Shown here in pieces: positions 1,500-61,500 of a stretch of 64,000 nt of DNA (the first letter of the stretch is position 1; every line of letters starts with the position of its first letter). The DNA lies in the NCBI GenBank assembly GCA_946699065.1, contig CAMPDV010000860.1, positions 1 through 64,000 on the forward strand, in the 5' to 3' direction. The notes below the pieces were generated by a model. It did not search any database. It saw nothing but the letters and a program-made list of their open reading frames with translations, and was not told the DNA's origin. A program made the position numbers and the translations under genes. The DNA is from Loxodes magnus (Eukaryota > Ciliophora > Karyorelictea > Loxodida > Loxodidae).

Positions 1500-2759
1500 A
1501 TTGTTAAAAATTTTTATATCTATCAAAACTCTAACCCTTTTTTTTTAATTTATCCATCCCGAAAATCTTTTGAAGTGTAAGACTCAGAGCTAAAAAATAA
1601 AAAATAATTGTTCCCAATTTCATTCTTTACTTTCTTTTCTCTCTTTTTAATTGAGATCCTTTTCAATTAAGTAAATTCTTATAAAATTAAAAAATTTTAT
1701 CACTAGTTTTTTCATTTACTCGAAAAGAAATTCAAATTTTTTAAATTTTAGTTCCAAGTAAAAAAAAATTAATTTATATCAAAAACATAAACAATAACTT
1801 TTTTTTATCATTTCAAAAAAATTAAACTTATCAAATTTTTTTTCTTGAAATAAAAGCAACAAAAAATTTGCTAAAATTTTTCAAATCAAATATTTTTCAT
1901 TCAAACAAAAATAATTTTTTTCATTTTTACAAAATACCATTTAAAAAAAGATTTACAAATTCTAATTATACTAAGAAATTTTTTAAATTCCTATTTTTTT
2001 CAAAAAGCTTTTATATTTGGAATTTTTTTTTTAATTTTATTCCTAACTAGAATTTTTTATCCCGAAATAGATAAATTTATTCTGTGTCGAAAATTTTTGG
2101 TAGTGTAAAACACTAAGCAAAAAAACAAATTTTTCATTTTCATGAAATTCATACTCTAAAATTGGAAGATTAATAAAACCTACTATCAGAAAATTTTTTC
2201 TCAATCGGAATATTAAGCATAAAATTAAAAATTTTATAATTAATAATAATTAATAATCAATATTAAATATCAATCATAAAAAACAAAATTTAATTTAAAA
2301 TAATTAATATTAAATACTTAATTAAACTTTTTAAATTATAATCAAGATTATAAACTTACTTTGCAAGTACAAATAAATTTTAACTACTTCGCAAAAATAA
2401 TGGGATTTATACTTTACTTGAAATTTTTACAAAATCTAAAAATAAATCAATAAAATTTTATAGCATAAAATTAAACTTTAACTTATTATACATCTTCTTT
2501 TACCAAAATTATATTTTAAATATTTTTAAACATTACCCACTTTAAATCACATACCTCACTAATTTCAATAACCTATATTTACTCAACCTTTTTTTTTAAA
2601 CCAAGAATATTTAAGAATATATAACCTTTTAATAAATAAATAAAAAACAAACACTTCATATAACTACAAACATTATTACCATTCAACATTCATTTAAATG
2701 CATTACCAATATCTTATATCTTTAATCGTAAAATTAAATTAAGTCAAATAGCAAGTTAC

Positions 2760-3831
2760 TCAACTCGAAACTCTCCACTTTCTTATCGTCCTGTCATATC
2801 CTCCCGATACCAACCATCTATTATCAACACTCAATGCTATAGAATATATATAATCTTTATGCCCTTACAAAGTCTATATACACTCACCCTTATCAAAATT
2901 TCAGATCTTGATTGTTCTGTCAACAGAACCAGAAAATATAACACTTGAATCAACACTTAACTGAATACTTGATATAACATCTGCGTGACCTTGAAGAGTT
3001 CGAATACACTAACCAAAAGAGAAGTCCCATATCTTAATAGTCCTGTCCCGAGAACCAGATATTATATACCTATTATCCTTAGACACTATCACTGATCAAA
3101 CTTAGTCTAAATGCCCAGTAATAGTTCGCACAAGCTGGCCTGTCTAGAAATCCCAGATCTTTATAGTTGTATCACGAGATCCCGATATAATATATTTAGA
3201 GTCATAGGAGAGTACTACCGATATAACATATGAAGTATGTCCCGTTATAGTTCTTAGGAGATCACCATTGTGGAAATTTCAGATCTTTATAGTTTAGTCA
3301 GAAGATCCTGATACTATATAGCTAGAGTCATAGGAGATTACTACCGATCTAACTATATCAGCATGTCCCATTATAGTTCTTTGGAGATCACCATTCTATA
3401 AGTTTCAGATCTTTATGGTTGAATCACCAGATCCTGATACTATATAATTAGAGTCTGGAGATATTACTACCGATAAAATAGTAGAAGTATGCCCCGTTAT
3501 AGTTCTTAGGAGAGCACCTGTCTGGAAATTCCAGATCTTTATCGAATTTTCAGGAGTTCCTAAACCTGATACAATTCAATTCAGGTCACTTGATGTGGCT
3601 ACCGACCAAACACGTGAAGTGTGTCCAGTAAGGATTTAGTCTAAAAAATATTAAAGAAATACCTTTACTTTGGTCATAACTAATCTTGTTTATTAGCTTT
3701 TAGTAGCATAAGTTGGGCAGAATTTCATACTTAAAATGAAGTAGAGATATTTTCCCTAAAATGTGGCTTCTCACTCTTAAGAGTTTTCTTAAAAAAATAC
3801 TTTTAGTAAATTGCTTTTCTTTTTTCTCCAT
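2760..3831 (-). CDS. Seven-bladed WD40 repeat protein (copy A, intact)
   Basis: Predicted protein of 349 residues. The first ~65 residues are basic and have no known domain; seven WD40 repeats of ~42 residues follow, each ending with D-x-T-I-K-I-W or a close variant, enough for one complete beta-propeller, typically a protein-protein interaction platform. The ATG at 3831 sits in a GAGAAAAAA context conserved in the paralogues. A 22-nt intron (3641-3662) must be removed, after which the length is exactly 350 codons including TGA at 2760-2762. In-frame TGA encodes the repeat Trp, and TAA/TAG encode Gln. The last blade reads 'TIRKW' and is the only one without a following repeat, so the C-terminus appears natural. 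Function and partner are unknown. Confidence 0.88.
3641..3662 (-). other. 22-nt spliceosomal intron
   Basis: On the minus strand the sequence runs GTATTTC...TTTTTTAG. Removing it joins the N-terminal frame ('SYDQSK') to the first WD40 repeat frame ('ILTGHT'). The same 22 bases lie at the same place in all four WD40 paralogues, and removal makes three of the four exact multiples of three. Confidence 0.88.
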
Positions 3832-5040
3832 TTATTTTTTATAACTTACTTCAATAAATATTTAATTAAAATAACTCAATAAATTTTACTGATTTAATTT
3901 CAATACAATTAAGCAATTAAATTATTTATTAAGCATATTTATAAATATCTTATTTCTTAAACATTGATTTATTAATTCTATTTTTGTCTTAAAACAAGAC
4001 GAAATATTAAATTAATAGTGTAAAAAACGTTTACAATTTTATTTATTTTATATTTTTTTACTTTTAAATAAAAGGATAAATTATTATATCAAAAGTTTTA
4101 TAACGAAGAATTGTATCCTTATTATAATAACTTTAATATACATTTATTAGTTACTACTTATTTGTGCTTTAAATCAAAGACTCTTAATAAGAAAACCTTA
4201 TTACATTGTAAACTAATTTAATTGATAAATAAAATATTACCATTTTTTTAAATCTACTGCTATTAATTATTGTTTTTCACTTACATTTAATCAAAAAAAT
4301 GATTTCTTTAAGCTTTTTACTAATTAAAAAAATTAAATTAAATGAGTTTCTTATTAATTAGTTTGAATAAATATTAAAAAACATCAAATTATTTAAAACT
4401 AAGTATTTTTAGAATCTATAAGATAAGCTCTTTTAATTACCCACTTTCTTACTACTATTTAATTAAAACTTTTTATTTATAAATGTCTCTCTTAAAATAA
4501 TAAACTAATATAATTAATTACTTTTGATGTTGATTCTAAGCAAAATGTATAAATGTAATAAATACATTTAGATAACTTTCTCTTTTATAGCAAACTAATA
4601 TTATATTTATTATTTATGTTATTTTTGTAATTATCATTTCAAACTAATAGTACCTAAATTATTCTATATTATTTAAAGATAAAAACTTAATTCTATTATT
4701 CTATACTTATCCAAAAAACATAGTTACCACTATTAATACTATCTTTATTAAAATAAGTTGTTTGCTATTAAGGAAATTCTAAACTTTTAAGAAAGAAAGT
4801 ATATTTTTAATATATTCTATTAATATTTTCTGAATTAATAGAAAGAGTAAACTTAACATAATATGTTTCTTTGTAATAAGTATGAGATAACATAAGTATT
4901 AGATTAGCTAATATAAGCTATTTAAAACTAATCTAGCTGATTATTATTTACTCTTAATACATTTTATTAGTCTACTATTATTCTATATCTTATTTTTCCT
5001 AATAAACAATTCTTTATGTTTTGCTTTATAGCACATCATA

Positions 5041-7391: not shown

Positions 7392-7404
7392 ATTTAAATT
7401 TATT
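7392..7404. repeat. TSD of SINE-like element S1 (left copy)
   Basis: ATTTAAATTTATT, repeated perfectly at 7718-7730, brackets the GC-richer element. A 13-nt target-site duplication is the length expected from LINE-type target-primed integration. Confidence 0.7.
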
Positions 7405-7717
7405 TAATTAATTTCAACTAAAAAAGTTTTTGGACTGGAAACTCCTTTCCGATTGCACAACCCGACGCTCTCTTTTTATGGAATAACGGGGATATCCTGC
7501 TGTGCTCCAAGCACAGCTGCTAGGGAGCTCCATCGCTATGAGCAGCCAGGCTTCAAGCCCCTACCAAGAGCGGATAATCTCAAAGACAGTGTTCCCTTCA
7601 GAAAATGACTCTGACCAGGGACTTTCTCAGCGACAGGAAAGGAACTTGTTCCTAGTCATAAAACCAAAAAGTTTAGTCACGAAGGTCATTCTCAGCTCCT
7701 ACCATCTTTTCAATTAT
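7405..7717 (+). mobile_element. SINE-like structured element, copy S1
   Basis: A ~313 bp block far richer in G+C than its surroundings and alignable along most of its length with 49486-49800. It starts near 'AACTAAAAAAGTTTTTGGACTG' (first 20 bases AACTAAAAAAGTTTTTGGAC) and ends 'ACCATCTTTT', compatible with a polymerase III T-run terminator. Hairpins: GGAAA/TTTCC at 7437-7450 and GCTGTGCT/AGCACAGC around 7498-7517; both stems are kept by paired changes in S2. GGCTTCAAGCC is weakly like a tRNA box B, but I see no convincing box A. The 73-codon ATG ORF inside it (7502-7723) is probably a chance frame: it overlaps the hairpins and is not preserved in S2. Family unknown. Confidence 0.7.
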
Positions 7718-7730
7718 ATTTAAATTTATT
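7718..7730. repeat. TSD of SINE-like element S1 (right copy)
   Basis: Second copy of ATTTAAATTTATT, identical to 7392-7404. Confidence 0.7.
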
Positions 7731-9424: not shown

Positions 9425-12400
9425 ATCTTAAACCTAGAATTAGAAAACTTTTATTTTAATTATAAATTAGATACCATTGCATTAATTATTAAATACTAAT
9501 TATTTTTCTATGAAATTCAATTTATAAAATAATAAATATAAGATACGTAAATAAATTATAAATAGTATTATTATAATAATATTATTTTTCATTTATAATT
9601 TGTAATTATAAATGAGTTAGTTTTATAAAATTTAATAGCCAGAAATTTTTATTTTAGATTAAAATATTTAAATAATATTAAATTTTTAAATAAGTAAGAA
9701 TAATATTCAAATTTACTTTTATTTATATATCTATTGTTCTAAGACAATCTTTAACTCTCCTTTTAATAAAAAATGTTCCTGGTTTCATAATTTTTGATTT
9801 ATAGGCTTATTTTAATCAATAAAATTAAAAAATAGATATGTTTTTAATTAAAAATTTTAATTAATTTTTCTACTTTACTTAATATATAAAGTTAGAATGC
9901 TAATATTTATATAAAATATTTTAATTTTAAAAAAATGAAGGAAAGTTAATATTAAGTTTAGAAAATAAAAAATTAAATAATTTTTATTTATTTATTCAAA
10001 TATTGGAAAGTTTCCACTTAAGCAGAAGTTTAAAATTTGAAACTAATAAAAAAATTAGTAATTTAAACATAATATACATCCATAAAGGATGAAAAATAGT
10101 AAAAATAAACTATCTTCGAATAGACTAATTATAAAAAAGACTGAGAGTTAGAGAATTTTTTATATTTTGAAACTGAAAATTTCTAAGAATAATTATTTTT
10201 ATGTTGAATTTCTTTATTTAAAAAGTCAATCGATGCTAGATTTGTAAAATTTTTATTCTTTAATATTTATCTTTATCACAAATATTGTTAAATATAAAAT
10301 TTTAATTTAAATTTTTTTAAATTTTAAATTTATTAATTTATCCTTTATTTTTCTTTTAGTAATATTTTTAAATAATTTAATAGAACTTGATAGTGTCAAT
10401 TAAATCACTAGTAAATTTTATAATCATTTTTTATAGAAAAATTTAATTTCTTAAGTTTTCTTTATAATATTTCATTTAACTTTTAAAAATATTTCTAAGG
10501 TTAAAATAAAGATTACATAATTTATTATATGTTTTATCTAAACATTTATAAAATATTTAAAATGTTTATTTATAATATCATTTAGTGCTATAAATTTTCT
10601 TAATATTTTTTAAATTATATTTAATTAATTTATTTGCATTTACTTTGTTTTTTTATAAAATATTAAGAAATTTTATATATAATAAACTATTTGAAATTTT
10701 TATTAAACAAATAGAAAAATATTAATTTTCCTTATTTTTATTTTAATTTAAAATATTATTCTTCATTAATAAAAAATGCAATCTCAGTTTTATTAAATAT
10801 TTTATCTAGAGGATAAGAAAATTTCTCATTAGTATCTTATTAAACCTATCTAAATTAACTTAAAATATTTAGAATATTTGCTAGTACAGTTAAAGTCAAA
10901 AAGAATTTTCCTTTTAAGTTTTTATGAATTAATATTACTAAATGAGTTAGTAAAGGAGGCTATAATATATTAAACAGTTGATTTTAAGATAAATAGAGGA
11001 TTTTAGATATATGAATAATTGACTCTATTGAAGATTTAACTTAGCTTTTCTTTTCTTTATTTAATTATATAAAAGAATAATGTTTTATCTTTACTATTTA
11101 TTTTAGTACATATAATTACCTAAATGTTTTATAGAACTAGTATCATTTATAATTTAAATTTAATATATTCTTATAATCAGAAAAATTGTAAAACTTAGAT
11201 AAATTAAGATTAAATATTTTAGAAAATGTACCTTTTTATCAGTTTTCCAAACGAAAGTTAATTAAAAAAGATAGTTAATAAAAAGGAATATATAAATATA
11301 ATTTAAATTTAGGAAAATTACGAATAACCTAAAAGTCTAGCTCATTTTAATGTCTCAGCTTCAAATAATTCTATAATTATCTGAATCGGCTTTTTATGTT
11401 TTAATATTTTGTAATGTATAAGATTATTAAATGATGATGTGCTATAAAGCAAACATGAAGCTTTGTTGATTAGGAATAATAAGATATAGAATAGTAGTAG
11501 ACTAATAAAATGTATTAAGAGTAAATAATAATCTGTTAGATTAGTTTTAAATAACTTATACTAGCTAATCTAATACTTATGTTATCTCATACTTATTACA
11601 AAGAAACATATTATGTTAAGTTTACTCTTTCTATTAATTCAGAAAATATTAATAGATGTTATTAAAATTATGCTTTCTTTCTTCTTTCTTAATAACAAAC
11701 AACTTATTTAAAAAAAGAGAGTATTAATAGTGGTAACAATATAATATAGATTTGTATAGAATAATAGAAAAGAAGTAAGTGTAATATAAAGTAAAATAAT
11801 TTAGGTATTTTTAATTTGAAATGATAATTACAAAAATAACATAAATAATAAATATTAGTTTGGTATAAAAAGAGAAAGTAATCTAAATGTATTAATAATT
11901 ATAACTAATCTAATATCTTTATAAATTAAAGAGAAATTAAATTTAAATTAATAAATAATAAAGCTAAAAGGATAAAATTTTAAGTATTTAATAGATATAA
12001 TTAAACATATTAAAATTTATTTTAGTAATATAATTAAATATTACTATTTAATAATTGTAAGATAAAATTAGAGATCAATCATTTCTAGTTAGTTTTAAAT
12101 ATTTACTTTCTACTACTTCTATTTATTACATTTATATAACCTATTTTGCTTAAAATAAGCATTAAATATGGGTAATGAATGATATCTGTTTGTTATTTTA
12201 AGAGAGACCTATATAAGTAAAAAGTTTAAATGAAATAGTAGTAAGAAAGTGGATAAGTAAAAGAATCTATCTTATAAATTCTTAAAATTCTTTTTTTTAA
12301 ATAATTTGATGTTTTTTAATATCTATTCAAACTAATTATTAAGAAACTTATTTTATTTCATTTTTTTAATTAGTAAAAGTTTAAAGAAATAATTTTTAAG

Positions 12401-12571: not shown

Positions 12572-14635
12572 ACTCTCAAAATATTCCACAATTTCCTTCC
12601 AACATCTTCCTTTCCTCTTCACACACTCTTATCTCCTTAAAACTATTCTCCTTTATAACATTCTAATCCCCTCACTCATATGTCTTTACTCATTTATATT
12701 AAATTTTTAACTTACCTTCTCCACTTATAATTACTTTGCCAAATCTAATATCCTCTTTATATTCCATTTTCTTATCGTTTTATCTTCAGATGCTGATACA
12801 ATATAGTTAGAGTCCGGTGAGATAACTACCGATTTAACTCGATCAGTATGTCCTTTCAAAGTTTTTTGGAGAGTTCCATTCTGGAAATTCCAGATCTTTA
12901 TCGTTGTATCGTGAGATGCTGATATAATATAGTTAGAATCTGGGGAGATAACTACCGATTTAACTCAATCAGTATGTCCTTTCAAAGTTCTTTGGAGAGT
13001 TCCAGTCTAGAAATTCCAGATCTTTATCGTTTCTAAAGATGCTGATATAATATAGTTAGAGTCTGGAGAGATAACCACCGATCTAACTGAAAAATTATGT
13101 CCAGTCAAAGTTCTTAGGAGAGCACCAGTCTGCAAATTCCAGATCTTTATCGTTTTGTCATAAGATGCTGATATAATATAGTTAGAGTCTGGGGAGATAA
13201 CTACCGAGGTAACTGATTATGTATGTCCAGTTAAAGTTCTTTGGAGAGTTCCATTCTGGAAATTCCAGATCTTTATCGTTGTATCGTGAGATGCTGATAT
13301 TATATAGTTAGAGTCTGGGGAGATTACTACCGATGAAACAGAAGAAGTATGTCCAGTCATTAAATTGCTTTGCTCTAGTTGAATATTTTATATATTTTAT
13401 ATACTTGCCATGTCAAAATTACATTTTACAATTCTTACGTTTGTTATTTTAATATCCTATAAACTTGAATTACTGAAATCGCAATTCTCGAAATAAGAAT
13501 CACTCAAATCAACTCCTTTTATTCTCACTCCTCTCAAGTCTTAGTTAAAAAACACAAAACCCAAATAATTCAACATTTTTATCGCATTCCCCGAAGCTTA
13601 GGTAATCTTGTCACTCCATTTAGATATTTTTATCACCTCTAATAATTTTTACTCTATTGTCTGGTCTCTCATAACCTCTAACTATTATAAGATGTCCGTC
13701 TACTCTAGCAAATGCTTGTCATTCAGTATACTTACTTTTATCTACTCTATATATATTTTTTATTCCCTAAACAGGCTTAGAAATTATCTTATTTCTTAAC
13801 TACTCATTTAAGGATTAACGTCAGGCATTTCAATTAATTAGATTAAGCTTTACTTTATAGCCTCTATATTCAATCTACTTTAAGGTATCTATTACCAACA
13901 TCCTCTTATTATTTAGGCAAAACAATCCGGACACTCTTAAGGTATTTATTCTCTTTCTCCATGACTAACTTAGTATATAACAACCTAATCGTTTAAAGCT
14001 TTGAAAGGAATTTCTCTTGTCGCTATTTCCCAAAGTACTATTCCCAAAGCATATATATCCGATTATATGCTATATTTAGGTCTAAGCGCCATTAATTCCG
14101 GAGCCATTCAACGAGTAGTTCCAACTTATTATACCGAACTTAAAGATTTAGATTCTGTCTTTATTCTCGATAGTCCAAAATCAGTTATTTTAACTTTATA
14201 ACTAGCTTCCAATAGTATATTACTACTTTTCAAGTCTCTATGAATTATATTAAACTCATGAATATACTATAATCCCTATACTATCTATAAACATATCTCA
14301 TACCTTAACTTCCATTCAATCTCTTAACTACTATGTAAAAATCCATACAAGGATTATTACATTAACTCCATAACCAAAGACATTGGAGAAGGACAGTATC
14401 CATATAATAAGACTACATTTGGATGTCTAAGCTTTTATAATATATTAAGCTCTTATAGAAATTCATTAGTTATCTCATTCATAGAACTCTAAATTAATAG
14501 CTCCTTTATAGCCACATCAGTACTTCCTTACCATTTCCCTTTATACACAGTACCAAAGCTTCCCCTGGCAATTTGAGAAACTTTTTATAAACTTTAAGCC
14601 TCTATAACTAAATATTGATCTATGGTAGATTCCAT
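12572..14635 (-). CDS. Protein kinase - pentapeptide-like - WD40 fusion protein
   Basis: One continuous minus-strand frame from ATG 14635. Residues ~19-290 form a complete kinase domain of tyrosine-kinase-like (TKL/MAP3K-like) type: glycine loop '[11 protein letters not shown]' (23-33), VAIK Lys44, 'HRDLKSSN' (132-139), DFG (152-154) and 'MAPE' (177-180). All catalytic residues are present, so it should be an active Ser/Thr or dual-specificity kinase. A helical linker follows, then a pentapeptide-like stretch ('[20 protein letters not shown]'), then at least five WD40 repeats ending in '[10 protein letters not shown]'. TAA/TAG as Gln and TGA as Trp occur inside. The C-terminal ~70 codons after the last repeat have no known domain; the frame runs into the duplicated segment at about 12567, so the true end is uncertain. 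Five repeats are too few for a usual seven-bladed propeller. Probably a signalling kinase with an interaction module. Confidence 0.85.
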
Positions 14636-21118: not shown

Positions 21119-24100
21119 CTAAAAGAATATGATAAATATTATAAATGACACAGTTTAATAATAAAATTATTACGAAGAAAAATGTACTGAAACAAATAAA
21201 AACTAAATATAAAATTTCACTATTAAAAATATTTAGAATCTAATAATAAAAATTATAAGAAATGAAAATGCTATTAAATAAAGTTTGAAAGAATTATATA
21301 AATTAAACTAATTGATTTATAATTATTATTAAAATAGTAATATTTATTTCTATATATAACTTAAAATTATTTAAAACTATGCTTAGAATGTTTAAAAATA
21401 AAGATAATTATTTTTTAAGCTATTAAATATATTAAATAAGTTTAATTATATTTTTTAAATACGATACATAAATTTTATAATTTCTTTAATTTCTAATTAT
21501 AGCTTAAAATAATATTATAGTTTTATTACATTTTTAATCATTTTACACATTAAATATTTTAAATTTTATATCTAAATTCTTTTTAATTTATAAAGATTTT
21601 GCTAAAGTTTAATGAAAAATTAATTAAAACTATTTTATAAATATAAAAATTAATTATTTTAATATATAATAAGAAATTAAATATTTTTATAATAGATAAA
21701 AAGAATCCATTCATGATGCAAAATTATTTATTATATTCTTTATTTACTTTATAATTTCTTGTTTAAATTTACTATCTATAAATACATTTTTTTATATTAC
21801 AAAGGCTTTAAAATGCTAGTCTCATTTTTTTTAATTTTTATATATATTTGAAAGTATGATAACCACTTGCTATAATATAATTAGAAAGAAATTTTCTTTG
21901 ATAAAAGTATAAATATTACTTATCAACTTGATAGAGTTTTTAATTGATTGCAAAATAGATTTTTATAATTAATTTCGTCGAAAATGTTTAAAAAATGATT
22001 TTTTATAGAAAGGGATATTTTAAACTAAAAATAAGAAGGGATTTATACTCTATTGATATAATTTATTTTATAAATAAATAATTTATTTTATTTTAATTTC
22101 CTATTTTAATTAAAAACAATTAGCATTTACATCTCTTAAACCTAGAATTAGAAAACTTTGATTTTAATTATAAATTAGATACAATTGCATAATTATTATT
22201 AATTATTTTTCTATGAAATTAAATTTATAAAAATAATAAATATAAGATACGTAAATAAATTAAAAAAATATTACTATAATAATATTATTTTTCGTTTATA
22301 ATTCGTAATCATAAATTGAGTAAGTTTTATAAAATTTAATAACCAAAAATTTTATTTTAGATTAAAAATATTTAAATAATATTAAATTTTAAATAAGCAA
22401 GAATGATATTCAAATTTAATATAATTTATATTTTATTTTCTTAATACAAATTTATCAAAAAGTTTAATTTAATTTAATTTTATTTATTGTTTTTAAATAA
22501 CCTTTAAATCTTCTTTTAATAGAAAATGGTCCTAATTTCGCATTTTTTTAATTTATAGGCATATTTTAATCAATAAAATTAAAAAATAAACATGTTTTTA
22601 ATTCAAAATTTTAATTAATTTTGCTACTTTACTTAATATTTAAAGTTAGAATGCTAATATTTAAATAATTAAATTATTTTAAAAAAATGAAGCTGGATTT
22701 CATATTAAGTTTAGAATATATAAAATTAAATAATTTTTATTTATTTATTCAAATATTGAATAGTTTCCGTTTAAGCAGAAGTTTAAGATTTGCGATTAGT
22801 AAAAAAATTAGTACTTTTACCATAATAAACATCCATAATTGATGAAAAATAGTAAAAATAACCTATCTTCGAATAGTCTGATTATAAAAAACTGAGACTT
22901 AGATCATTTTTTAGCATTTTTAACATTATTAAATTTTTATATTTTGAAATTGAAAATTTCTAAGAATAATTATTTTTTGTTGAATTTCTTCATTTAAAAA
23001 GTCAATCAATGCTAGATTTGTAAAATTTTTAATTTTTTAATATTTATCTTTATCACAAATATTGTTAAATATAAAATTTTAAATTATAATTTTTTTTTAT
23101 TTTTCAATTAATAATTTATACTTTATTTTTTCTTTTAGTAATAATTTTAAATAATTTAATAGAAGTTGATAGTGTCAATTAAATAATTAGTAAATTTTAT
23201 ATTCATTTTTTATAGAAAAATTTAATTTCTTAAGTTTTCCTTATAATTTTTAATTTAACTTTTAAAAATATTTTACTACATTTCTAAGGTTAAAATAGAG
23301 ATTACATAATTTATTATATGTTTTATCTAAAAATTAATTAAATATTTAAATATTTATTTATAATATCATTTAGAATTATATATTTTCTTAATATTTTTAA
23401 TTATATTTATTTAATTTTTTTGCATTTACTTTGGTTTTTTATAAAATATTAAGAGATTTTATATATAATGAATTATTTTAAATTTTTATTAAACAAATAG
23501 AAAAATATTAATTTTTCCTTATTTTAATTTAAAATATTATTCTTCATTAATAAAAAATGCAATCACAGTTTTATTAAATATTTTATCTAGAGGATAAGAT
23601 AATTTCTCATTAGTATCTAATTAAACCTACTTTTAACTAGTTAAAATACTTAGAATATTTGCAAGTACAGTTAAAGTAAAAAGGAAATTTCTTTTAAGTT
23701 TTTATGAATTAATATAATTAAGTGAGTTAGTGAAGGAGGCTATAATATATTAAACACTTGATTTTAAGATAAATAGAGGATTTTAGATATATGAATAAAT
23801 TACTCTATAGAAGATTTAAATTAGCTTTTCTTTATTTAATTATATAAAAGAATAATGTTTTCTCTTTACTATTTATTTTAGTACATATAATTACCTAAAT
23901 GTTTTATAGAACTAGTATCATTAATACTTTAAATTTAATATATTCTTATACTCACTAAAATAAACTTAGATCAATTAAGACTAAATTTTTTACAGAATGT
24001 ATCTTTTTGTCAGTTTTCCAAACGAAAGTTAATTACAAAAGATAGTTAAAAAAAAGGAATATATAAATATAATTTAAATTTAAGAAAATTATAAATAATC

Positions 24101-24537: not shown

Positions 24538-25405
24538 AGTTAAAAAGTTAAAGTTAAAAAGCTTTGTTAAAGCCTTAGTAGTCAGCCATCTGACCTATTC
24601 TATCAGCTTGTCTCTATTAGTTTGTCTTGAATTTCTACTAGGCTTAGTTAGGCGGTGTAGCACTTCATTAGCGCACCATCCTTTAATATTCTGAATAGTT
24701 TTCATCTTGCATGTAGCGTTCCTAATTATTTCTCCAAGGATTAAGATTTGAATTAAAGAATTTTTTTCTATAAATTTTTCCGCTTTATGTTGGATATATC
24801 CTAAATAGTTTTCTAAAATTATCTTATTTATTCTTTCTTTAAATTTCGCTTAGTTAGTAGCAGTATTTTCATTGGTGTTATTTATTGCACACGTAGCATT
24901 TTATTCTTCTTTTAAACTATTATTCCTGTAACACTTATTTAATTTAAATTTACTACTTATTTTAAATAAACGTTTACTGTTTATTTTAATTTGAGGCTTC
25001 ATTTTCTATTTCCATAGGATCTGATTAATTCTGTTAAAACGAAAATGGCGTTACCTGAATTTATTATTAAATTTAAAGAATTCTTTGCTCCAGTTTGTCT
25101 TCTATTTCTTATGATTATTAATATTGTTTCTCAAGTAAAGACGTTATTAGTTTTTCTAATTTTTCTACTTTATCAGGTATCTATTTTTAAACATAAACTC
25201 TTTTAATGACTTAGATAATATTTCTATTTGAGTTTGTGTCGGAAGTTTTTTTAGTTCTGGATTTCCAAGTGGCTAATGTTCGTCATATCAATCATATTTT
25301 TCGCTTTCACTCATTGTAATTATTTCGCTTTTTTATTTTTTAGAAAATTTTCCTGTTTAAATGTTTTGTTCAAAGTTCTGTTATTTCTTAGAAGCCATTT
25401 TATAT
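24538..25405 (-). mobile_element. Gag-only retroelement of family M, copy G3
   Basis: Minus-strand copy of an ~870 bp element also at 30605-31490 and 54316-55185. It starts 'ATATATAAAATGGCTTCTAAG' (first 20 bases ATATATAAAATGGCTTCTAA) and ends in a TTTTTAACTTTAACTTTA-like tail. Comparison with the empty site in copy C (34485-34495, 'GAATATAATAATAG') shows a clean insertion with at most a 6-7 nt AT-rich duplication ('ATATAA'). Confidence 0.85.
24665..25398 (-). CDS. Gag-like protein of family M (G3)
   Basis: ATG 25398 to TGA 24665-24667. A first frame of ~70 codons ('GNPELKKLPTQTQIEILSKS') is followed by a second frame carrying a coiled coil ('DKVEKLEKLITSLLEKQ'), 'DPMEIE', a knuckle 'CYVCNKQHQWKYC' (one residue shorter than CX2CX4HX4C) and 'SGKIYRKKFF'. 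The 734 bp length is the same in copy G4, so the frame change is shared and not a recent indel. The stop lies inside the 3' hairpin loop. Probably the RNA-binding protein of a LINE-dependent element. Confidence 0.65.
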
Positions 25406-26492
25406 ATATATAATAATAGAATTAAGTTTTTATCTTTAAATAATCTAGAATAATTTAGGTATTATTAATTAGAAATGATAATTACAAAAATAACATAAAT
25501 AATAAATATTAGTTTGCTATAAAAGAGAAAGTTATCTTAATGTATTAATTATAATTAATCTAATATCTTTATTAATTAAAGAGAAATTAAATTAATAACT
25601 AATAAAGCTAAAAGGATAAAATATTAAGTATTTAATAGACATAATTAAAATATTAAAGCTTATTTTAATAATAAAATTAAATATTACTATTTAATAATTG
25701 TAAGGTAAAATTAGTGAAATCCATTTCTAGTTAGTTTAAATATTTACTTTCTACTACTTATATTTATTACATTTATATATTTTGCTTAGAATCAACATTA
25801 AAATAATTATATTATTTTATTATTAAAAGAGAGACCTTTATAAATAAAAGGTTTTAATGAAATAATAGTAAGAAAATGGACGATTAAAAGATTTTATCTT
25901 ATGAATACTAAAAATACTTTGTTTTAAATAAATTAATGTTTTTTAATTTCTATTTAAGCTAATTAATAAGAAACTCAATTTTATTTCATTATTTTAATTA
26001 GTAAATAGCTTAAATAAATATTTTTTTTGATTAAATGTAAGTTAAAAACAATAATTAATAGCAGTAGATTTAAAAAATGGTAATATTATATTTATCATTT
26101 AAATTAGTCTACAACGAAAATTTTTTTTCTTATTAAGAGTCTTTGATTATAACACAAATAAATAGTAACTAATAAATGTATATTAAAGTTATTATAATAA
26201 GGATATAATTCTTCGTTATAAACTTTTGATATAATAATTTATCCTTTTATTTAAAAGTAAAAGAAATAAAATTATTAAAATTGTAAAAGCTTGTACAGAT
26301 AGTTTTATATCTTGTCTTGTTTTAAGACAAAAATAGAAAAATCAATGTTTTAGAAATTAGATACTTATAAGTATGCTTAATAAACAATTTAATTGTTTAA
26401 TTGTAATGAAATTAAGTCAGTAAAATGTATTGAGTTATTTTAATTAAAAAGTCATAGAAGTAAATTATAAAATTAAAATGGAAAAAAAATAA

Positions 26493-27563
<1,071 letters not shown>

Positions 27564-28029
27564 GTAACTTGCTATTTGACTTAAATAAATTTTACGATTA
27601 AAGATATAAGATATTGGTTATTCGTTTAAATGAATGTTGAATGGTAATAATGTTTGTAGTTATATGAAGTGTTTGTTTTTTATATATTTATTAAAAGGTT
27701 GTATATTCTTAAATATTCTTGGTTTAAAAAAAAGGTTGAGTAACATAGGTTATAGAAATTAGTGAGGTATGTTGATTTAAAGTGGGTAATATTAAAAATA
27801 TTTTAAATATATCTTTTGTTAAATGAAGACGTATAATAAATTTAAGTTTAATTTTATGCTATAAAATTTTATAGATTTATTTTTAGATTTGGTAAAAATT
27901 TTAAGTTGAGTATAAATTTAATTTTTTTGTGAAGTAGTTAAAATATTATTTATAAGGGCAAAGATGGTTTATAATCTTGATTACAATTAAAAAAATTTAA
28001 TTAAATGTTTCATTTTATTTATATTATTA

Positions 28030-30604: not shown

Positions 30605-31490
30605 ATATATATATAAAATGGCTTCTAAGAAATAACAGAACTTTGAACAAAACATTTAAACAGGAAAATTCTCTAAAAAATAAAAAAGCGAAATAATTAC
30701 AATGAGTGAAAGTGAGAAATATGATTGATATGACGAACGTTAACCATTTGGAAATCCAGAATTAAAAAAACTTCCGACACAAACTCAAATAGAAATATTA
30801 TCTAAGTCATTAAAAGAGTTTATGTTTAAAAATAGATACCTGATAAAGTAGAAAAATTAGAAAAACTAATAACGTCTTTACTTGAGAAACAATATTAATC
30901 ATCATAAGAAATAGAAGACAAACTGGAACAAAGAATTCTTTAAATTTAATAATAAATTCAGGTTACGCCATTTTCGTTTTAACAGAATTAATCAGATCCT
31001 ATGGAAATAGAAAATGAAGCCTCAAATTAAAATAAACAGTAAACGATTATTTAAAATAAGTAGTAAATTTAAATTAAATAAGTGTTACAGGAATAATAGG
31101 TTAGAAGAAGAATAAAATGCTACGTGTGCAATAAATAACACCAATGAAAATACTGCTACTAACTAAGCGAAATTTAAAGAAAGAATAAATAAGATATTTT
31201 TAGAAAACTATTTAGGATATATCCAACATAAAGCGGAAAAATTTATAGAAAAAAATTCTTTAATTCAAATCTTAATCCTTGGATAAATAATTAGGAACGC
31301 TACATGCAAGATGAAAACTATTCAGAATATTAAAGGATGGTGCGCTAATGAAGTGCTACACCGCCTAACTAAGCCTAGTAGAAATTCAAGACAAACTAAT
31401 AGAGACAAGCTGATAGAATAGGTCAGATGGCTGACTACTAATGCTTTAACAAAGCTTTTTAACTTTTAACTTTAACTTTATAAAGCTATA
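30605..31490 (+). mobile_element. Gag-only retroelement of family M, copy G4
   Basis: Plus-strand copy nearly identical to G3 and G7. It has the 5' end 'ATATATATAAAATGG' and a 3' tail of TTAACTTT/AACTTTA units. The 3' 150 bp contains the hairpin with loop core TAATGAAGTGCTA and a conserved tail ending 'CTTTAACAAAGCTTTTTAA'. Confidence 0.85.
30618..31351 (+). CDS. Gag-like protein of family M (G4)
   Basis: ATG 30618 to TGA 31349-31351, 734 bp, the same length as in G3. The first frame ('MASKKQQNFEQNIQTGKFSK') runs to about 30825; the second frame starts near 'IPDKVEKLEKL' and carries 'DPMEIE', the knuckle 'CYVCNKQHQWKYC' (Trp by TGA) and the 'SGKIYRKK' motif. No GT-AG intron of suitable length was found at the switch, so ribosomal frameshifting or an ancestral frameshift shared by dead copies are the options. 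Confidence 0.65.
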
Positions 31491-32299: not shown

Positions 32300-33106
32300 T
32301 TAAATAGGATACATAAATTTTATAATTTCTTTAATTTCTAATTATAGCTTAAAATAATATTATAGTTTTATTACATTTTTAATCATTTTACACATTAAAT
32401 ATTTTAAATTTTATATATAAATTCTTTTTAATTTATAAAGATTTTGCTAAAGTTTAATGAAAAATTAATTAAAACTATTTTATAAAATATAAAAATATAT
32501 TATTTTAATATATAATAAGACATTAAATATTTTTATAATAGATAAAAAGAATCCATTCATGATGCAAAATTATTTATTATATTCTTTATTTACTTTATAA
32601 TTTCTTGTTTAAATTTATTATCTATAAATACATTTTTTTATATTACAAAGGCTTTAAAATTCTAGTCTCATTTTTTTTAATTTTTATATATATTTGAAAG
32701 TATGATAACCACTTGCTATAATCTAATTAGAAAGAAATGTTCTTTGATAAAAGTATAAATATTACTTATAAACTTGATAGAGTTTTTAATTTATAAAAGA
32801 GATTTTTATAATTAGTTTCGCAGAAAATGTTTAAAAAATATTTTTAATAGAAAGGGATATTTTAAACTAAAAATAAGAAGGGATTTATGCTCTATTGATA
32901 TAATTTATTTTATAAATAAATAATTTATTTTTTTAATTAGAAATTTATCAACAAATTTAATCTTATTTTATTTGTATTTCTATTGTTCTTAAATAAACTT
33001 TAAATCTTCTTATGTATTTTACCATAAATACATCCATAATTGATGAAAAATAGTAAAAATAAACTATCTTCAAATAGGCTGATTATAAAAATCTGAGAGT
33101 TAGAGA

Positions 33107-33152
33107 ATTTTTTAGCATTTTTAGCATTTTTAACATTTTTAACATTTTTATA
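33107..33152 (+). repeat. Short tandem repeat (AGCATTTTTA/AACATTTTTA)n
   Basis: Four imperfect 10-bp units in copy C. Copies B and D have fewer units at this place (about 22913 and 49150). Confidence 0.6.
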
Positions 33153-35549
33153 GTTTTTTGTTGAATTTCTTTATTTAAAAACTCAATCGATGCTAGATTT
33201 ATAAGATTTTTATTTATAATATTTATCTTAGACACAATTATTGTTAAATATAAAATTTTAAATTATAATTTTTTAATTTTTTAAATTAATTAATTTATAA
33301 TTTATTTTTTCTTTTAGTAATATTTTTAAATAATTTAATAAAAATGATAGTGTCAACTAAATAATTAGTAAATTTTATATTCATTTTTTATAGAAAAATT
33401 TAATTTCTTAAGTTTTCCTTATAATTTTTAATTTAACTTTTTATTAAACAAATAGAAAAATATTAATTTTCCTTATTTTAATTTAAAATATTATTCTTCA
33501 TTAATAAGAAATGCAATCAAGGTTTTATTAAATATTTTATCTAGAGGATAAGAAAATTTCTTATTAGTCTCTAATTAAACCTATCTTTAAATAGTTAAAG
33601 TACTTAGAATATTTGCAAGTAAAGTTAAAGTAAAAAGGAATTTTGTTTTAAGTTTTTATGAATTAATATTACTAAATTAGTAAAGGAGGCTATAATATAT
33701 TAAGCACTTGGTTTAAAGATAAATAGAGGACTTTAGATAAATGAATAATTGACTCTATTGAAGATTTAAGCTAGCTTTTCTTGGTTTAATTATATAAAAG
33801 AATAATGTTTTCTCTTTACTATTTATTTTAGTACATATAATTACCTAAATGTTTTATAGAACTAGTATCATTAATACTTTAAATTTAATATATTCTTATA
33901 CTCACTAAAAAAATTTAGATAAATTAAGACTAAATTTTTTATAAAATGTACCTTTTTATCAGTTTTCCAAACAAAAGTTAATTACAAAAGATAGTTAATA
34001 AAAAGGAATATATAAATATAATTTAAATTTAGGAAAATTATAAATAATCTAAAAATCAAACTTATTTAATGCCTAAGTTTCAAATAATTCTATAACTATC
34101 TATATCATCTTTTTAGGTTTAAATCTTCTGTAATAAGATTAATAAATGAGGATGTGCTATAAAGCAAAACATGTAGAATTGTTGATTAGGAACAGAAAGA
34201 TATAGAATAATAGTAGACTAATAAAATGTATTAAGAGTAAATAATAATCTGTTAGATTAGTTTTAAATAGTTTATATTAGCTAATCTAATACTTATATTA
34301 TCTCATACTTATTACAAAGAAACATATTATGTTAAGTTTACTCTTTCTATTAATTCAGAAAATAATAATAGAAGATAGTAAAAATCTGCTTTCTTATAAT
34401 CTTATAATTTTCTTAAGAGCAAACAACTTATTTTAATAAAGAGAGTATTAATAGTGTTAGCAATATAATATAGATTTGAATATAATAATAGAATTAAGTT
34501 TTTATCTTTAAATAATCTAGAATAATTTAGGTATTATTAATTAGAAATGATAATTACTAAAATAACATAAATAATAAATATTAGTTTGCTATAAAAAGAG
34601 AAAGTTATCTAAATGTATTAATTATAACTAATATAATATCTTTATAAATTAAAGAGAAATTAAATTAATAACTAATAAAGCTAAAAGGATAAAATATTAA
34701 GTATTTAATAGACATAATTAAAATATTAAAGCTTATTTTAATAATAAAATTAAATATTACTATTTAATAATTGTAAGATAAAATTAGTAATCAACCATTT
34801 TTAGTTAGTTCTTAATATTTACTTTCTATTACTTCTATTTATTACATTTATATATTTTTCTTAGAATCAACATTATAATAAATTATATTATTTTTATTAT
34901 TATAAGAGAGATCTTTATAAATAAAAAGTTTTAATGAAATAGTAGTAAGAAAGTGGATAATTAAAAGATTTTATCTTATAAATTCTAAAAATACTTTATT
35001 TTAAATAATTTAATGTTTTTAATATTTATTCAAAATAATTATAAGAAACTTATTTTATTTACTTTTATTTAATTAGTAAAAAGCTTAAAGAAATATTTTT
35101 TTGATTAAATGTAAGTGAAAAGTAATAATTAATAGCAATAGGTTTTAAAAGAATTGTAATATTATATTTATCATTTAAATTAGTCTATAAAGAAATAATG
35201 TTTTCTTATTAAAAGTCTTTGATTTAAAGCACAAATAAGTTTTAATTAATTAAATGCATATTAAAGTTATTATAATAAGGATATAATTCTTCGTTATAAA
35301 CTTTTGATAAAATAAATTATCCTTTTATTTAAAAGTAAAAGGATATAAAATAATTAAAATCTTAAAAGTTTATACACTATTAGTTTAATATCTTGTCTTG
35401 TTTTAAGACAAAAATAGAAAAATCAATGTTTTAGAAGATACTTATAAGTATGCTTAATAAATAATTTAATTGTTTAATTGTAATGAAATTAAGTAAGTAA
35501 AATTTATTGAGTTATTTTAATTAAATTGAAGTAAGTTATAAAAATTAAA

Positions 35550-36618
35550 ATGGAGGAAAAAGAAAATCAATTTACTAAAAGTATTTTTTTAAGAAAACTC
35601 TTAAGAGCGAGAAGCCACATTTTAGGGAAAATATCTCTTCTTCATTTTAAGTATGAAATTCTGCCTAACTTATGCTACTAAAAGTTAGTAAATAAGATCA
35701 GTTATGACCAAAGTAAAGGTATTTCTTTAATATTTTTTAGACTAAGTCCTTACTGACACTTCAGCTGTTTTCTCTGTCGTCATATCAAGTGATCTGAATT
35801 GAATTGTATCAGGTTCAGCATATCCTGAATGTTCAATAAAGATCTGGAATTTCCAGACAGGTGCTCTCCTAAGAACTATAACAGGGCATACTAATATAAT
35901 TCTCTCGGTAGTAATCTCCCCAGACTCTAGCTATATAGTATCAGGATCTTACGATAAAACCATAAAGATCTGAAACTTATAGACTGGTTCTCTCATAAGA
36001 ACTTTAACAGAACATATTTCTACAGTTTACTCGGTAGTAATCTCCCCTGACTCTAGCTATATAATATCAGGATCTTCTGACAAAACCATAAAGATCTGAA
36101 ATTTCCACAATGGAGCTCTCCAAAAAACTATAACGGGACATACTGGTTCAGTTTTATCGGTAGTAATCGCCTATGACTCTAGATATATTATATCGGGATC
36201 TGGTGATACAACTATAAATATCTGGGATTTCTAGACTGGTCAGCTTGTGTGAAATCTTACTGGGCATTCAGATTATGTTAGATCGGTGATAGTATCTAAG
36301 GATAATAGGTATATAATATCGGGTTCTGGTGACAAGAATATTAAAATATGGGATTTCTCTTCTGGTTAGTGTATTCGTACTCTTTAAGGTCACTCAAATT
36401 ATGTATCAAGTATTCAGTTAAGTGTTGATTCAAGTGTTATCTTTTCTGGTTCATGGGACAGAACAATCAAGATCTGGAATTTTGATAAGGGTGAGTGTAT
36501 CTAGACTTTGTAAGGGCATACAGATCCAATATACTCTATAGCATTGAGTGTTGACAATTGATGGTTGGTATCGGGAGGATTTGACAATACGATAAGAAAG
36601 GGGAGAGTTTCGAGTTGA
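35550..36618 (+). CDS. Seven-bladed WD40 repeat protein (copy C, intact)
   Basis: ATG 35550, 22-nt intron 35719-35740, TGA 36616-36618; the spliced length is exactly 349 codons. It has the N-terminal ~65 residues ('MEEKENQFTKSIFLRKLL') and seven WD40 repeats. In-frame TGA supplies the repeat Trp in several blades. The first repeat has lost the usual GH ('LTDTSAVFS' versus 'LTGHT' in copies A and D), and the last blade reads 'TIRKGRVSS'. Differences from the other copies are scattered through the exposed inter-strand positions just after GH ('GHTNII', 'EHISTV', 'GHTGSV'). Confidence 0.85.
35719..35740 (+). other. 22-nt intron in WD40 copy C
   Basis: Same GTATTTC...TTTTTTAG intron and phase as the other copies. 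Confidence 0.88.
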
Positions 36619-39300: not shown

Positions 39301-39859
39301 AAAAAGAAATTTTTTTCTTGCAAATTGATTTATAAAACAAAACTTATTTTTATGTGAGATTAATTGAAGATGAGCAAGAATTTGAAGAAATATAAAATAA
39401 ATAGGTTATAAGATGCAACATATCGTCAAAAATATTTAGAATCTTTCCTGCAAACTTATCTAGAATTCTTTTAGATAGATTAAGATAATCTTGAAGTTTA
39501 ATATAAATTTATAAAAGTAACATATAATACAATGATGATTAAACATTAGGATCCTTTATTCCAGACTCAAGTTATAACAAATTTCCTCAAGATCTTACTA
39601 AGAAATATGTAGGCCTAAAAGGGCTAACTCAGTATATAAGAAGTATACATTATATCTGGAAGAATAAACAAATAAGTAACTAATCTTCATGAAAAAGTGA
39701 AACAAATTTGGAAAGACTTCAAGTCTAATTTGTGAAAATTTGAAAAAATAAAGCAAAAAAGAAACTTTTACTTCTAAATGGAGATTCTAAAGAAATATTT
39801 TCGCATACTAAGAAAATTAAAAAGCCTAAAATAATAAATTAAATGAACTTTAATTAAGA
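39301..39859. other. AT-rich flank and possible LINE 5' remnant
   Basis: Between the end of duplication C and the RT domain there are Lys-rich frames ('GDSKEIFSHTKKIKK', near 39776) that fit the region N-terminal to a LINE RT, but in a different frame from the RT domain. Treated as decayed LINE sequence. Confidence 0.35.
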
Positions 39860-41640
39860 AATCAAAAATAAATCCATTGATTCATGGAAGAATTTATTTT
39901 TAAAAAACATTCTAATCTAACTCAATAATAAATAAATCTTAGTAATTAAAAAATAGATAAAATATAAGATAGTATTTAGGAAATTAAAGATTATCAACTC
40001 TCATATTTATAAGGATTTTATCTTTTTACCATACAAGAAATACAAGAAATTATAAAAGAAATTACAAATGGAAAAGCAGCTGTTTCAGCTTGAATAAAAG
40101 GTGAACTTCTGAAATATGGTGGATAATATTTGTTAATAATTCTTCACTCTTTTCTGAATAATATGTTAAGATTTGTAAGAATCCCTTAGGAATTAAATAC
40201 ATTGTCGGTAATTCCAATATTAAAAAAAGGAAATAAAGATGACTGGAAAAACTGACTACCTATTTCTCTTATTAATATTATTATTAAACTATATGATAAA
40301 GCTTTAGCAAAAAGACTATAAAATCTGATTTATTAGAGAAATTTGATTCACCCTTCATAAATAGGATTTATAAAAATCAGATAAACAACTTAATAAATTT
40401 GAATAATATAACAAATAATTGATAACTATCGGAAACGTGCTAAAGGTAAGTATTTTTACATAAACTCACTTAAAGATCAAAGTTATCAAATCTGAATGCA
40501 TCTAAATTTTAAAGAAACATTAGAAATAATAAAATTTAAATTTATGATTAGATAATTAACCAAATATTTAAAAGGAACTAGTAACATATTTAGATGTAAT
40601 GCTACATTAGAAGAAGAATTTTAATCCTCATTGTAGAGAAGTCGCGCTCAAGTATTTAGCTGCAATGAAAAAAGCTGTTTTTTAACTAATGAGATATAAG
40701 AATGTGATTTCTTGGCATTTTAAAACTTTATGCAAACTTTTTACACTACCTAAAGTAGAATATGGAGGAGAGCTAGCACCATGGTGTATTCAAAAAGGAA
40801 TAACTGGAGTTTTGAATAGAATTGAATCAAGTATGAGAATGATTTAAAGAAAAGCATTTTAAGCAGCAACTTCAACATTAATAAGTTATGTTTCATAGAT
40901 TTAAACTGGTTATCTTTCAAACACATTATGGCAATAAATTTGTTTAAATTCTATTATAAAATGAAATAAGAAAGTATTGATTTTTCAACATCGACAATAG
41001 GCTCTCTTTTCGTTACCAACTGAAAAAAATAATTTCAATGCTATGATCTAGTTTAGCAATTATCAGACCTCTATAGTATAGACCTGTAGAATTCCAAGAT
41101 TAGTACAAATTAACAAATTTTTACTAAATATATAAGAGACAAAATACAACAATATTTCGATAATATAGCTTCTCAAAAGTTTAAGAGAATGAAAAAAGTT
41201 AAAATATATACTAAGCAGTTTCGTATCTTAACTAATTTCCAGTAATTACTTACACTAAGTTGAACAAATAATTTAGATAAGAAATTATTAGTATATATAA
41301 ACTTAGAACCCAATCTTATAATTTTAGAAAAGATCTTTAAGATCGTCATTATCCTATTGATAATCCCTACTGTATGTGTGAAGAGTATGATGCATTCAAG
41401 CACATTTTTAGATGTATATACTATTCTAATATAAGAGATTGACTATCGTAAAAGATTGGGAATTATGAATTAAGCCGCTTTATAATATATGATTAAGGAC
41501 TTATAAACTTCTTTCCAAAGTCTTATTTGGGATATTTAGATTTATAAATAAAAGTATTTCACAAGAAACTTATATCAAGAAGATTAGAATTATTAGAAAT
41601 GGAAAAAGTAAATAAGGAAAACATAAAAGAGAGACTATAA
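39860..41640 (+). pseudogene. LINE ORF2 with reverse transcriptase remnants
   Basis: The frame contains hallmark non-LTR RT blocks: 'ITNGKAAVSAWIKGELLKYG', 'VIPILKKGNKDDWKNWLPIS' then 'LINIIIKLYDKALAKRLQN' (the K-x-G ... NWRPISLLN ... KI..K.LA.RL block) and 'HPSQIGFIKIRQT' (Q-x-GF-x3-R-T). The catalytic palm (the D of block A and the YxDD of block C) is missing: after about 40440 the frame jumps to post-RT sequence ('LPKVEYGGELAPW' near 40757). The C-terminal zinc motif 'CMCEEYDAFKHIFRC' is near 41365-41415. Trp by TGA and Gln by TAA/TAG occur inside the conserved blocks. Non-functional because of the internal deletion. Confidence 0.85.
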
Positions 41641-41769
41641 CAAGAGTAATTAAAAATTGATGAGATCAAGATTATAATTAAAAAGCATTAAAAAAATTTA
41701 CTAATGTCTATAAAAGGAAGCAATTCATGCAGTTATAGACGTCAAAAAACTCTTTTAATTTAAAATTTA

Positions 41770-42985
41770 TATAAACAGTTTCATACAATAACTCTTTCAT
41801 TAAATTGATATATTATTACTAAATAGCTTTAATTTATACCATTTATTTTTATAAATAAATATTAAAATTTAAGTTCTAAAAACTAATTAAATTGCTAATG
41901 AAGCCATTTAAAGAAATCTTTATTTAACTATAATTAATAAAACATAGATAATATAAAGGAAGAAATATTTTAAAGGAATTTAAGTTTTAAGTAAACCAAA
42001 GGAACTTTAGCTTTATTACTTTAATAATATAAAATTAAAATGATGGCAAAATATAGTTTAAAATAATCCTTTATAATAGTAAGATATTAATATTAAAAAT
42101 ACTATATAGAAAATCTAAAATAATTCAATAATTATATGCTTAGCTAGAATTAATTATCTTTGTATAATTAAAAATTAATAAAGAGGAAGCTTTTCATAAT
42201 TTTGATATGAATTTAAATAATTGGTTAACAATAAGCATTTGATTACTATATTATAAAAATATAAAAGTTCTCATTTAATAATTAATGTCTACAATAATTA
42301 AAACAATAATTTAGTAAATTAAAAAATAAATATAGTTAAACATATCTTTAGAGATAACTGTATAAAATAAAATTAATAAAGAATTATCAATAATTACAAA
42401 TTTAATGAATGTATAATTTTTAGTTCTAAGTAATATAAGTAATTATAATAATAATCTTAACTAACTTTTATTATATTTTAAAGTTAATTATAAATTATTA
42501 ATTTATATAAATTTAATTAAACTTATTATAATTATGTAAAATTAATTATTTTATAATTGTCAGTTAAATAAATTTAAATAAGCCATTATTATTAATTTGC
42601 TAATAATAAGAAAATTATACTTACATAAAATATTTAACTATAATTAAATTACTTTATTTCTTTTATTTAAAAACATATTTTAACTAAAACTATCCTTTAA
42701 TATTATAAGTGCTAAATTATTAAATTTTATTTATCCTATCATTTTTATTATTTATATATATATCAGCAATTATATTAGAAAGGCCCATATTTTAGCTTAA
42801 AATTAATAAAATAAATGATAATTATTAAAATAATTTATTTTAATTTTTAAAAATTAATAAATAAAAATCTTATTCACTATTTAAAAGTTTAAATAATAAG
42901 TAATAATAATAAACTATAAGAGTTTAAATATTTTAAATATTGAGACATAATTGTATAATTATTGCCATTTAACCATGCAAATTAC
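41770..42985. other. AT-rich DNA without recognisable feature
   Basis: Over 1.2 kb of nearly pure A/T low-complexity sequence. No gene, RNA or repeat boundary can be supported. Confidence 0.55.
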
Positions 42986-49467: not shown

Positions 49468-49485
49468 TTATAAATTTTAATTTAA
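49468..49485. repeat. TSD of SINE-like element S2 (left copy)
   Basis: TTATAAATTTTAATTTAA (18 nt), perfectly repeated at 49801-49818. Copy B shows the uninterrupted site near 23245. Confidence 0.88.
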
Positions 49486-49800
49486 TTTAATTTAATTTTA
49501 AACTAAAAGAGTTTTTGGACTGCAACTTCTTGCAGTTTAACGACCCCAACACTCCCTTCATGGGATAACGGGGATATCCTGTTGCTTTCGAAAAGCAGCT
49601 GCCAGGGAGCTCCATCGCTATGGGCAGCCAGGCTTCAAGCCCCTACCAGGAGTGGATAATCAAGAGGAAGGCGTTCCCTTGCAAAGGTTGACTTTGACCA
49701 GGGACTTTCTCAGCGACAGGAAAGGAACTTGTTCCTAGCCATAAAACCAGAAAGTATGATTCAGAAGGTCAATCTCAGCTCCCACCATCTTTTTAATTAT
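49486..49800 (+). mobile_element. SINE-like structured element, copy S2
   Basis: 315 bp, homologous to S1. Stem 1 is CTGCAA/TTGCAG (GGAAA/TTTCC in S1) and stem 2 is GTTGCTTT/AAAGCAGC (GCTGTGCT/AGCACAGC in S1), so paired changes keep both hairpins. The most conserved core is 'CAGCCAGGCTTCAAGCCCCT'. A second conserved block is 'GACTTTCTCAGCGACAGGAA', followed by GGAAC..GTTCC. It ends 'ACCATCTTTTT'. No ORF is conserved with S1, so it is a non-coding RNA retroposon. Its parent RNA is not recognised (not tRNA, 5S or 7SL by eye). Confidence 0.85.
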
Positions 49801-49818
49801 TTATAAATTTTAATTTAA
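49801..49818. repeat. TSD of SINE-like element S2 (right copy)
   Basis: Second copy of the 18-nt TSD. Confidence 0.88.
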
Positions 49819-61427: not shown

Positions 61428-61500
61428 TGCCGAAACCCGGGATTGAACCGGGGACCTTTAGATCTTCAGTCTAACGCTCTCCCAACTGAGCTATTTCGGC
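61428..61500 (-). tRNA. tRNA-Phe (GAA)
   Basis: Minus-strand 73-base tRNA: acceptor GCCGAAA/TTTCGGC with discriminator A; D arm with AGCTCAGTTGGGAGAGC; anticodon stem-loop with GAA (loop CTGAAGA, stem GTTAGA/TCTAA-type); variable loop; T arm with GGTTCAATCC (box B). Box A is TAGCTCAGTTGG. A T5 run follows directly downstream on the minus strand, a polymerase III terminator. No intron and no encoded CCA, as usual in eukaryotes. It is nearly identical to the common eukaryotic tRNA-Phe. Confidence 0.97.

Follow-up and report, generated by a model that had tools for sequence, protein, structure and literature searches.

An apparently undescribed SINE-type retroposon family in the genome of the karyorelict ciliate Loxodes magnus

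Two elements, S1 and S2, in a 64,000-nucleotide stretch of the Loxodes magnus genome (hereafter the window) are genuine insertions and represent recent copies of a retroposon of the SINE type. It is very probable that they belong to a SINE family of ~310 nt, comprising the subfamilies S1, S2, S3 and S4, of which the transcript is read from the minus strand and is copied by a LINE enzyme recognising a LINE-like 3' end. Direct support comes from insertion with target-site duplications (TSDs), empty sites of S2, one fixed and one variable end, the similarity of the S2 tail to a LINE and the structure of the minus strand.

The window copies and their relatives in the genome

The two copies and their duplications are located in the window as follows.

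7392..7404, unstranded: TSD of S1, tail side, 13 nt, perfect direct repeat
7405..7717, minus strand: SINE copy S1, with its 5' end at 7717 and its tail at 7405
7718..7730, unstranded: TSD of S1, head side, 13 nt, perfect direct repeat
49468..49485, unstranded: TSD of S2, tail side, 18 nt, perfect direct repeat
49486..49800, minus strand: SINE copy S2, with its 5' end at 49800 and its tail at 49486
49801..49818, unstranded: TSD of S2, head side, 18 nt, perfect direct repeat

S1 and S2 are 313-315 nt long, share 82% identity and are about twice as GC-rich as their surroundings (44.1% and 44.8%, respectively, vs 22.2% for the window). An earlier note on this DNA had described two related elements of ~313 bp that were GC-richer than their context, carried different perfect TSDs of 13 and 18 nt and formed a SINE-like retroposon family; all of this was borne out. 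In the genome-wide search for which the note had called, the genome containing the window (705.7 Mb) yielded 1991 first-look candidates for S1 and 1664 for S2. The best 40 of each were scored and proved complete or almost complete, with identities of 96-100% to S1 and 99-100% to S2, some of these copies having flanks in common.

Among 68 blast hits in 67 loci, 59 were copies of at least 300 nt, while nine shorter hits (eight LINE tails and one partial S4 copy) were left out. Removal of 15 flank-duplicates from the 59 copies gave 44 distinct sites, 24 of them S2-like and 20 S1-like. A perfect TSD of at least 10 nt was found at 35 of the 44 sites, in contrast to 0.65% of 2000 controls with swapped left and right flanks; eight of the remaining nine sites bear flank matches of 6-9 nt, and one bears none. 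The TSD has a median of 15 nt across all 44 sites, and measures 14-17 nt at 28 of the 35 sites where it reaches 10 nt. Duplications of such variable length, along with the two empty sites of S2 described below, are as expected from target-primed reverse transcription, and the S1/S2 family has the character of a short, dispersed, non-coding and non-autonomous repeat. For S2, the best 40 matches, a sample biased toward young copies, included 24 sites with different flanks, and the 24 distinct sequences differ by 0-0.96% from their own consensus.

The flanks of S2 match paralogous segments within the window, and in two of these the stretch common to the left and right flanks is exactly the 18-nt TSD.

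23241..23258, unstranded: first empty paralogous site of S2, holding a single copy of the 18-nt target (left flank 22741-23258, right flank 23241-23842)
10462..10479, unstranded: second empty paralogous site of S2 (left flank 9988-10479, right flank 10462-11067)
33428..33436, unstranded: a further paralogue that lacks S2 and is rearranged on its right side (left flank 33016-33436; the right flank matches at 33428-33792, beginning with its base 233)

Because of this exact overlap, the first two are empty sites, and the S2 insertion most simply postdates the duplication of its segment. The flanks of S1 have no paralogue within the window, and hence S1 has no empty site there. The density in sequence not selected for SINEs was 3 copies in about 224 kb, partly redundant, which very roughly corresponds to 10,000 copies per 706 Mb, a figure resting on 3 events.

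Searches with S3 and S4 gave 841 and 1545 first-look candidates, respectively, of which 40 each were scored. The 13 S3 loci examined (12 plus locus L079) all share their flanks, as do the 12 S4 loci, and in either case a single insertion seems to have been multiplied by segmental duplication; on account of these shared flanks we rejected the idea that S3 and S4 are large families. Many SINE copies are segmental duplicates rather than independent jumps. Segmental duplications with WD40-like 126-nt repeats, in both orientations, were observed in the window at 2590-3840, 12754-13360, 26484-27733, 35756-36788 and 52190-53403, and such segments passively multiply old SINE and LINE insertions. Two other repeats came to our attention. 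One, of ~800-870 bp and 97-98% alike between copies, lies in opposite orientations at 24543-25411, 30605-31473 and 54377-55182. The other, GC-richer, is common to the window (56734-57301, minus strand) and L079 (1568-2092, reverse), with similar read-through peptides noticed by eye in locus L066, and is possibly a second SINE-like element.

Sense strand, coding capacity and RNA structure

In 43 of 44 copies the minus-strand 5' end extends to an identical first base, and the opposite end of the element is an AT-rich repeat tail of variable length: the TAGTT motif and the TSD are 11-27 nt apart in 35 measured sites, and the copies L016 and L027-L029, which have flanks in common, differ in repeat number at the tail end. 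Since a fixed first base at one end and a variable repeat tail at the other constitute the anatomy of a SINE, the minus strand is taken as the sense strand. The predicted folds agree with this polarity. The consensus of 28 copies folds on the minus strand at -27.8, as against -11.6 +/- 4.2 for column shuffles (0 of 60 as low), with a covariation term of 4.65 vs 2.84 +/- 0.94 (59 of 60 shuffles at or below), whereas the plus strand reaches -10.9 vs -7.3 +/- 3.1 (10 of 60 as low). The minus strand is most likely the one transcribed, and the plus-strand orientation implicit in the earlier note was wrong, the transcript most likely being the reverse complement.

The plus-strand alternative, a Pol III RNA with a terminal T run that is moved by a relaxed LINE, is improbable, albeit the best placed of the competing explanations. 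It draws on a T run near the plus-strand 3' end (CTTTTT in S2, CTTTTC in S1) and on an A-like and a B-like box, each with one mismatch, which stand in order on the plus strand, the only strand with a B-box-like site. By our own estimate, however, chance would give roughly one or two such one-mismatch boxes per strand; neither strand of the element has a perfect A or B box and one-mismatch sites occur on both, with the reservation that the consensus may not cover ciliate Pol III promoters. Furthermore, in this orientation the 5' end would be variable and repetitive and the 3' end fixed, opposite to what target-primed reverse transcription usually produces; folding of the plus strand is weak, and the LINE match described below belongs to the minus strand. 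The minus-strand reading has a difficulty of its own, as TTTT runs seen by eye within the sense strand would trouble Pol III.

No ORF of at least 150 amino acids (table 11) was found within the window. RT matches in this genome carry TGA, TAG and TAA in frame (7, 4 and 8, respectively, in the best match), and TGA is read as Trp, by eye, in the WD40-like repeat of the window; all three stop codons appear to be read as amino acids in this genome, and stop-based ORF tests are consequently little informative. In the alignment, S1, S2 and S3 differ by indels of which the length is not a multiple of 3, which supports the earlier claim that the elements share no conserved ORF and led us to reject a coding gene. 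A DNA transposon or MITE was rejected as well, because the TSD length varies, one end is a variable repeat and no terminal inverted repeats were seen by eye.

Two stems had been singled out in the earlier note as covarying, and they correspond to the following hairpins.

7437..7450, minus strand: S1 tail hairpin, with the GGAAA/TTTCC stem of the earlier note
7499..7517, minus strand: S1 internal hairpin, with the GCTGTGCT/AGCACAGC stem of the earlier note
49520..49535, minus strand: S2 tail hairpin CTGCAA-GAAG-TTGCAG
49581..49599, minus strand: S2 internal hairpin

We aligned 28 hand-chosen rows (11 of S1, 6 of S2 and 11 of the 13 S3 loci, with S4 left out), on which RNAalifold predicted 34 pairs, 13 of them with at least one double change. 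Both stems exist, and once S3 is included 91.4% of the 301 cells are paired (95.2% in the tail stem and 84.8% in the internal stem), compared with only 18-49% in a control with slid partners. The tail stem of S1 in the window nevertheless contains a C-A mismatch, which recurs in 2 of the 10 further S1 rows, while 8 of the 11 S1 rows have a C-G pair; in the internal stem, the pair of columns 210 and 218 is unpaired in 11 of the 28 rows. The further claim of selection on RNA structure held in part. Cells with both sides changed numbered 41 vs 15.6 in shuffles and the covariation score of the two stems was 0.380 vs 0.185 (0 of 500 shuffles as high in either case), for pairs that were named after the sequences had been seen. 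On the other hand, the 5 pairs showing a double change (188 of 500 shuffles as high) and the 11 pair types (378 of 500) were no more than the shuffles gave, and the rows represent three lineages only, with few independent changes, the S3 lineage looking like a single old insertion. The covariation supports an RNA structure, short of strong statistical proof, and compensatory differences between the subfamilies preserve the stems.

The LINE-like tail and a putative partner

A decayed LINE in the window shares its 3' end with the sense tail of S2.

39360..41775, plus strand: decayed LINE, approximate extent; the RT piece 40022-40597 matches RVT_1 (1.8e-9)
41706..41740, plus strand: hairpin GTCTATAA...TTATAGAC immediately preceding the LINE tail, by eye
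41741..41775, plus strand: LINE 3' end common to the S2 sense tail, 30/35 bases

The LINE remnant terminates in GTCAAAAAACTCTTTTAATTTAAAATTTATATAAA, and it is this sequence that has the 30 of 35 bases listed in common with the sense tail of S2, while the best score among 300 dinucleotide-shuffled S2 tails on both strands was 27. The match is in sense, at the 3' terminus of an element that carries an RT. The S1 tail agrees with the LINE end at 23 of 32 bases, tied with other places and not above background, so that a 3' end common to a LINE of the same genome was found for S2, in a decayed element, and only at background level for S1. The window LINE is old and was copied along with its segment; its three long frames, read whole, gave no Pfam match, perhaps owing to decay and skewed composition.

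The RT of the window LINE shares 47% amino acid identity over 179 aa with an element here called LINE-C (loci L097 and L079), and 31% over 121 aa with LINE-A. LINE-C encodes EN (PF14529, Exo_endo_phos_2, 1.3e-10) and RT (PF00078, RVT_1, 7.2e-32) in one frame, and ends, by eye, in a hairpin CAATATT...AATATTG followed by AAACTATTATATTTTAATTAATTAATT. LINE-A, of which four copies were compared (97-98% alike over shared parts), is unlikely to be the partner of the SINE, its 3' end consisting of a GAGC...GCTC hairpin and a TTTA tail. Among the LINE loci examined, no intact or young element ended in exactly the SINE tail. LINE-A and LINE-B (L068-L071 and L072-L074) also seem, by eye, to end in a hairpin and an AT repeat tail of different sequences, and each may have its own SINE. 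Elsewhere, RT matches recur every 2532 bases at C20:2028-7877 and C5131:12904-26349 of the genome (G000), and every 2504 bases at C5131:5395-11161; these are tandem arrays of LINE pieces, possibly assembly artefacts.

From the features above we infer transcription, a partner enzyme and hairpin recognition, in the following manner. The minus-strand SINE RNA would begin with the fixed 5' end ATAATT-AAAAGATGGTGGGAGC, continue into a structured body and finish in a LINE-like 3' end, namely a short hairpin, after which S2 has TCCAAAAACTCTTTTAGTTTAAAATT and a repeat tail of the AATTA type. The 3' end of the partner LINE would likewise carry a hairpin and nearly the same tail as S2. The enzyme of an EN- and RT-bearing LINE related to LINE-C most likely recognises the SINE 3' end; it would nick an AT-rich target and copy the SINE RNA in place by target-primed reverse transcription, which would leave TSDs around the new SINE. 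The RT of stringent LINEs recognises a 3' hairpin (PMC4176376), and by analogy the tail hairpin of the SINE, adjoining the LINE-like tail, is a natural candidate for such recognition.

Origin of the head, and comparison with known elements

Comparison with Rfam, also proposed in the earlier note, for which a good match would have counted as refutation, revealed no known family: S1 and S2 had no match reaching gathering, and at E up to 10 only irrelevant sub-threshold matches were obtained for S1, S2 and S3. A known Rfam RNA was accordingly rejected as the parent of the three. No parental RNA was recognised, as in the earlier note, but the 3' end at least is in S2 LINE-like rather than part of an unfamiliar RNA. 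None of the Rfam matches for S1, S2 or S3 pointed to a tRNA, 5S or 7SL head, and ARAGORN detected no tRNA in S1 or S2; its only prediction in the window was a tRNA-Phe (GAA) gene elsewhere, at 61428-61500 on the minus strand. One stretch of the element may resemble human 7SL, a resemblance that we dropped because it is not kept in S3. SINEs with heads of unexplained origin exist, and a head derived from tRNA, 5S or 7SL is not required.

The covarying stems and the want of a known parent in Rfam would also suit a multi-copy structural RNA gene, the copies being retropseudogenes of one functional parent; yet a LINE tail is not expected on retropseudogenes, and S1 and S2 form separate subfamilies, each at many sites, which makes this explanation less likely still than a plus-strand SINE. 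An internally deleted LINE derivative, in which a LINE 5' region rather than a SINE head is joined to a LINE tail, would account for the short length, the LINE tail of S2 and the EN-type TSDs, and is just as unlikely, since no match longer than 50 nt links S1, S2 or S3 to 86,368 bases of LINE-targeted loci (in which not all full-length LINE 5' ends are included), save for one S3 copy downstream of a LINE-C ORF.

Returning to a minus-strand SINE copied by a LINE enzyme, a broader proposal can be put forward tentatively. The subfamilies might form a SINE superfamily, recently active in a karyorelict ciliate and kept in its somatic genome, of which the body derived from a structured RNA unlike tRNA, 5S or 7SL, and of which the 3' hairpin changes its sequence and keeps its shape, as if tracking changing LINE RTs. 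Most ciliates excise transposons from the somatic nucleus. Loxodes is reported to leave them there (PMC11441545), and for this reason an active SINE/LINE pair, if genuine, would be present in both nuclei and open to study as in a conventional eukaryote.

The MAC assembly of L. magnus is described as 706 Mbp in size, with LINEs and 757 k unclassified repeat copies, and the word 'SINE' has 0 occurrences in the main text of the genome paper (PMC11441545). We found no description of a ciliate SINE, or of a Loxodes element of this kind, among the titles and abstract openings of the open-licence papers retrieved. The family is apparently undescribed; it is new, but its kind of mobile DNA is an ordinary and familiar one, and it would help to classify part of those unclassified copies.

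The LINEs published for L. magnus are autonomous elements of 5-6 kb with RVT_1 and Exo_endo_phos_2 (PMC11441545). LINE-A and LINE-C resemble them in carrying both domains, whereas the SINE differs from them in being neither autonomous nor of such length. In the eel UnaL2/UnaSINE and in zebrafish LINEs, pairs of the stringent type consist of a SINE and an RT-encoding LINE with a common 3' hairpin-plus-tail, a repeat tail and TSDs. The Loxodes SINE differs from UnaL2/UnaSINE in sequence, host and head, and its partner is known here from an old decayed copy, with a putative recognition by RT; by analogy, it would resemble that pair in the 3' hairpin-plus-tail common with an RT-encoding LINE, the repeat tail and the TSDs. 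EhSINE/EhLINE of Entamoeba inhabit an AT-rich protist genome, the SINE having a 3' end common to the LINE and a head of unclear origin. Likened by description, and across unrelated hosts, the Loxodes SINE corresponds to them as an element of an AT-rich protist, with an unclear head and a 3' end that, in S2, would be shared with a LINE.
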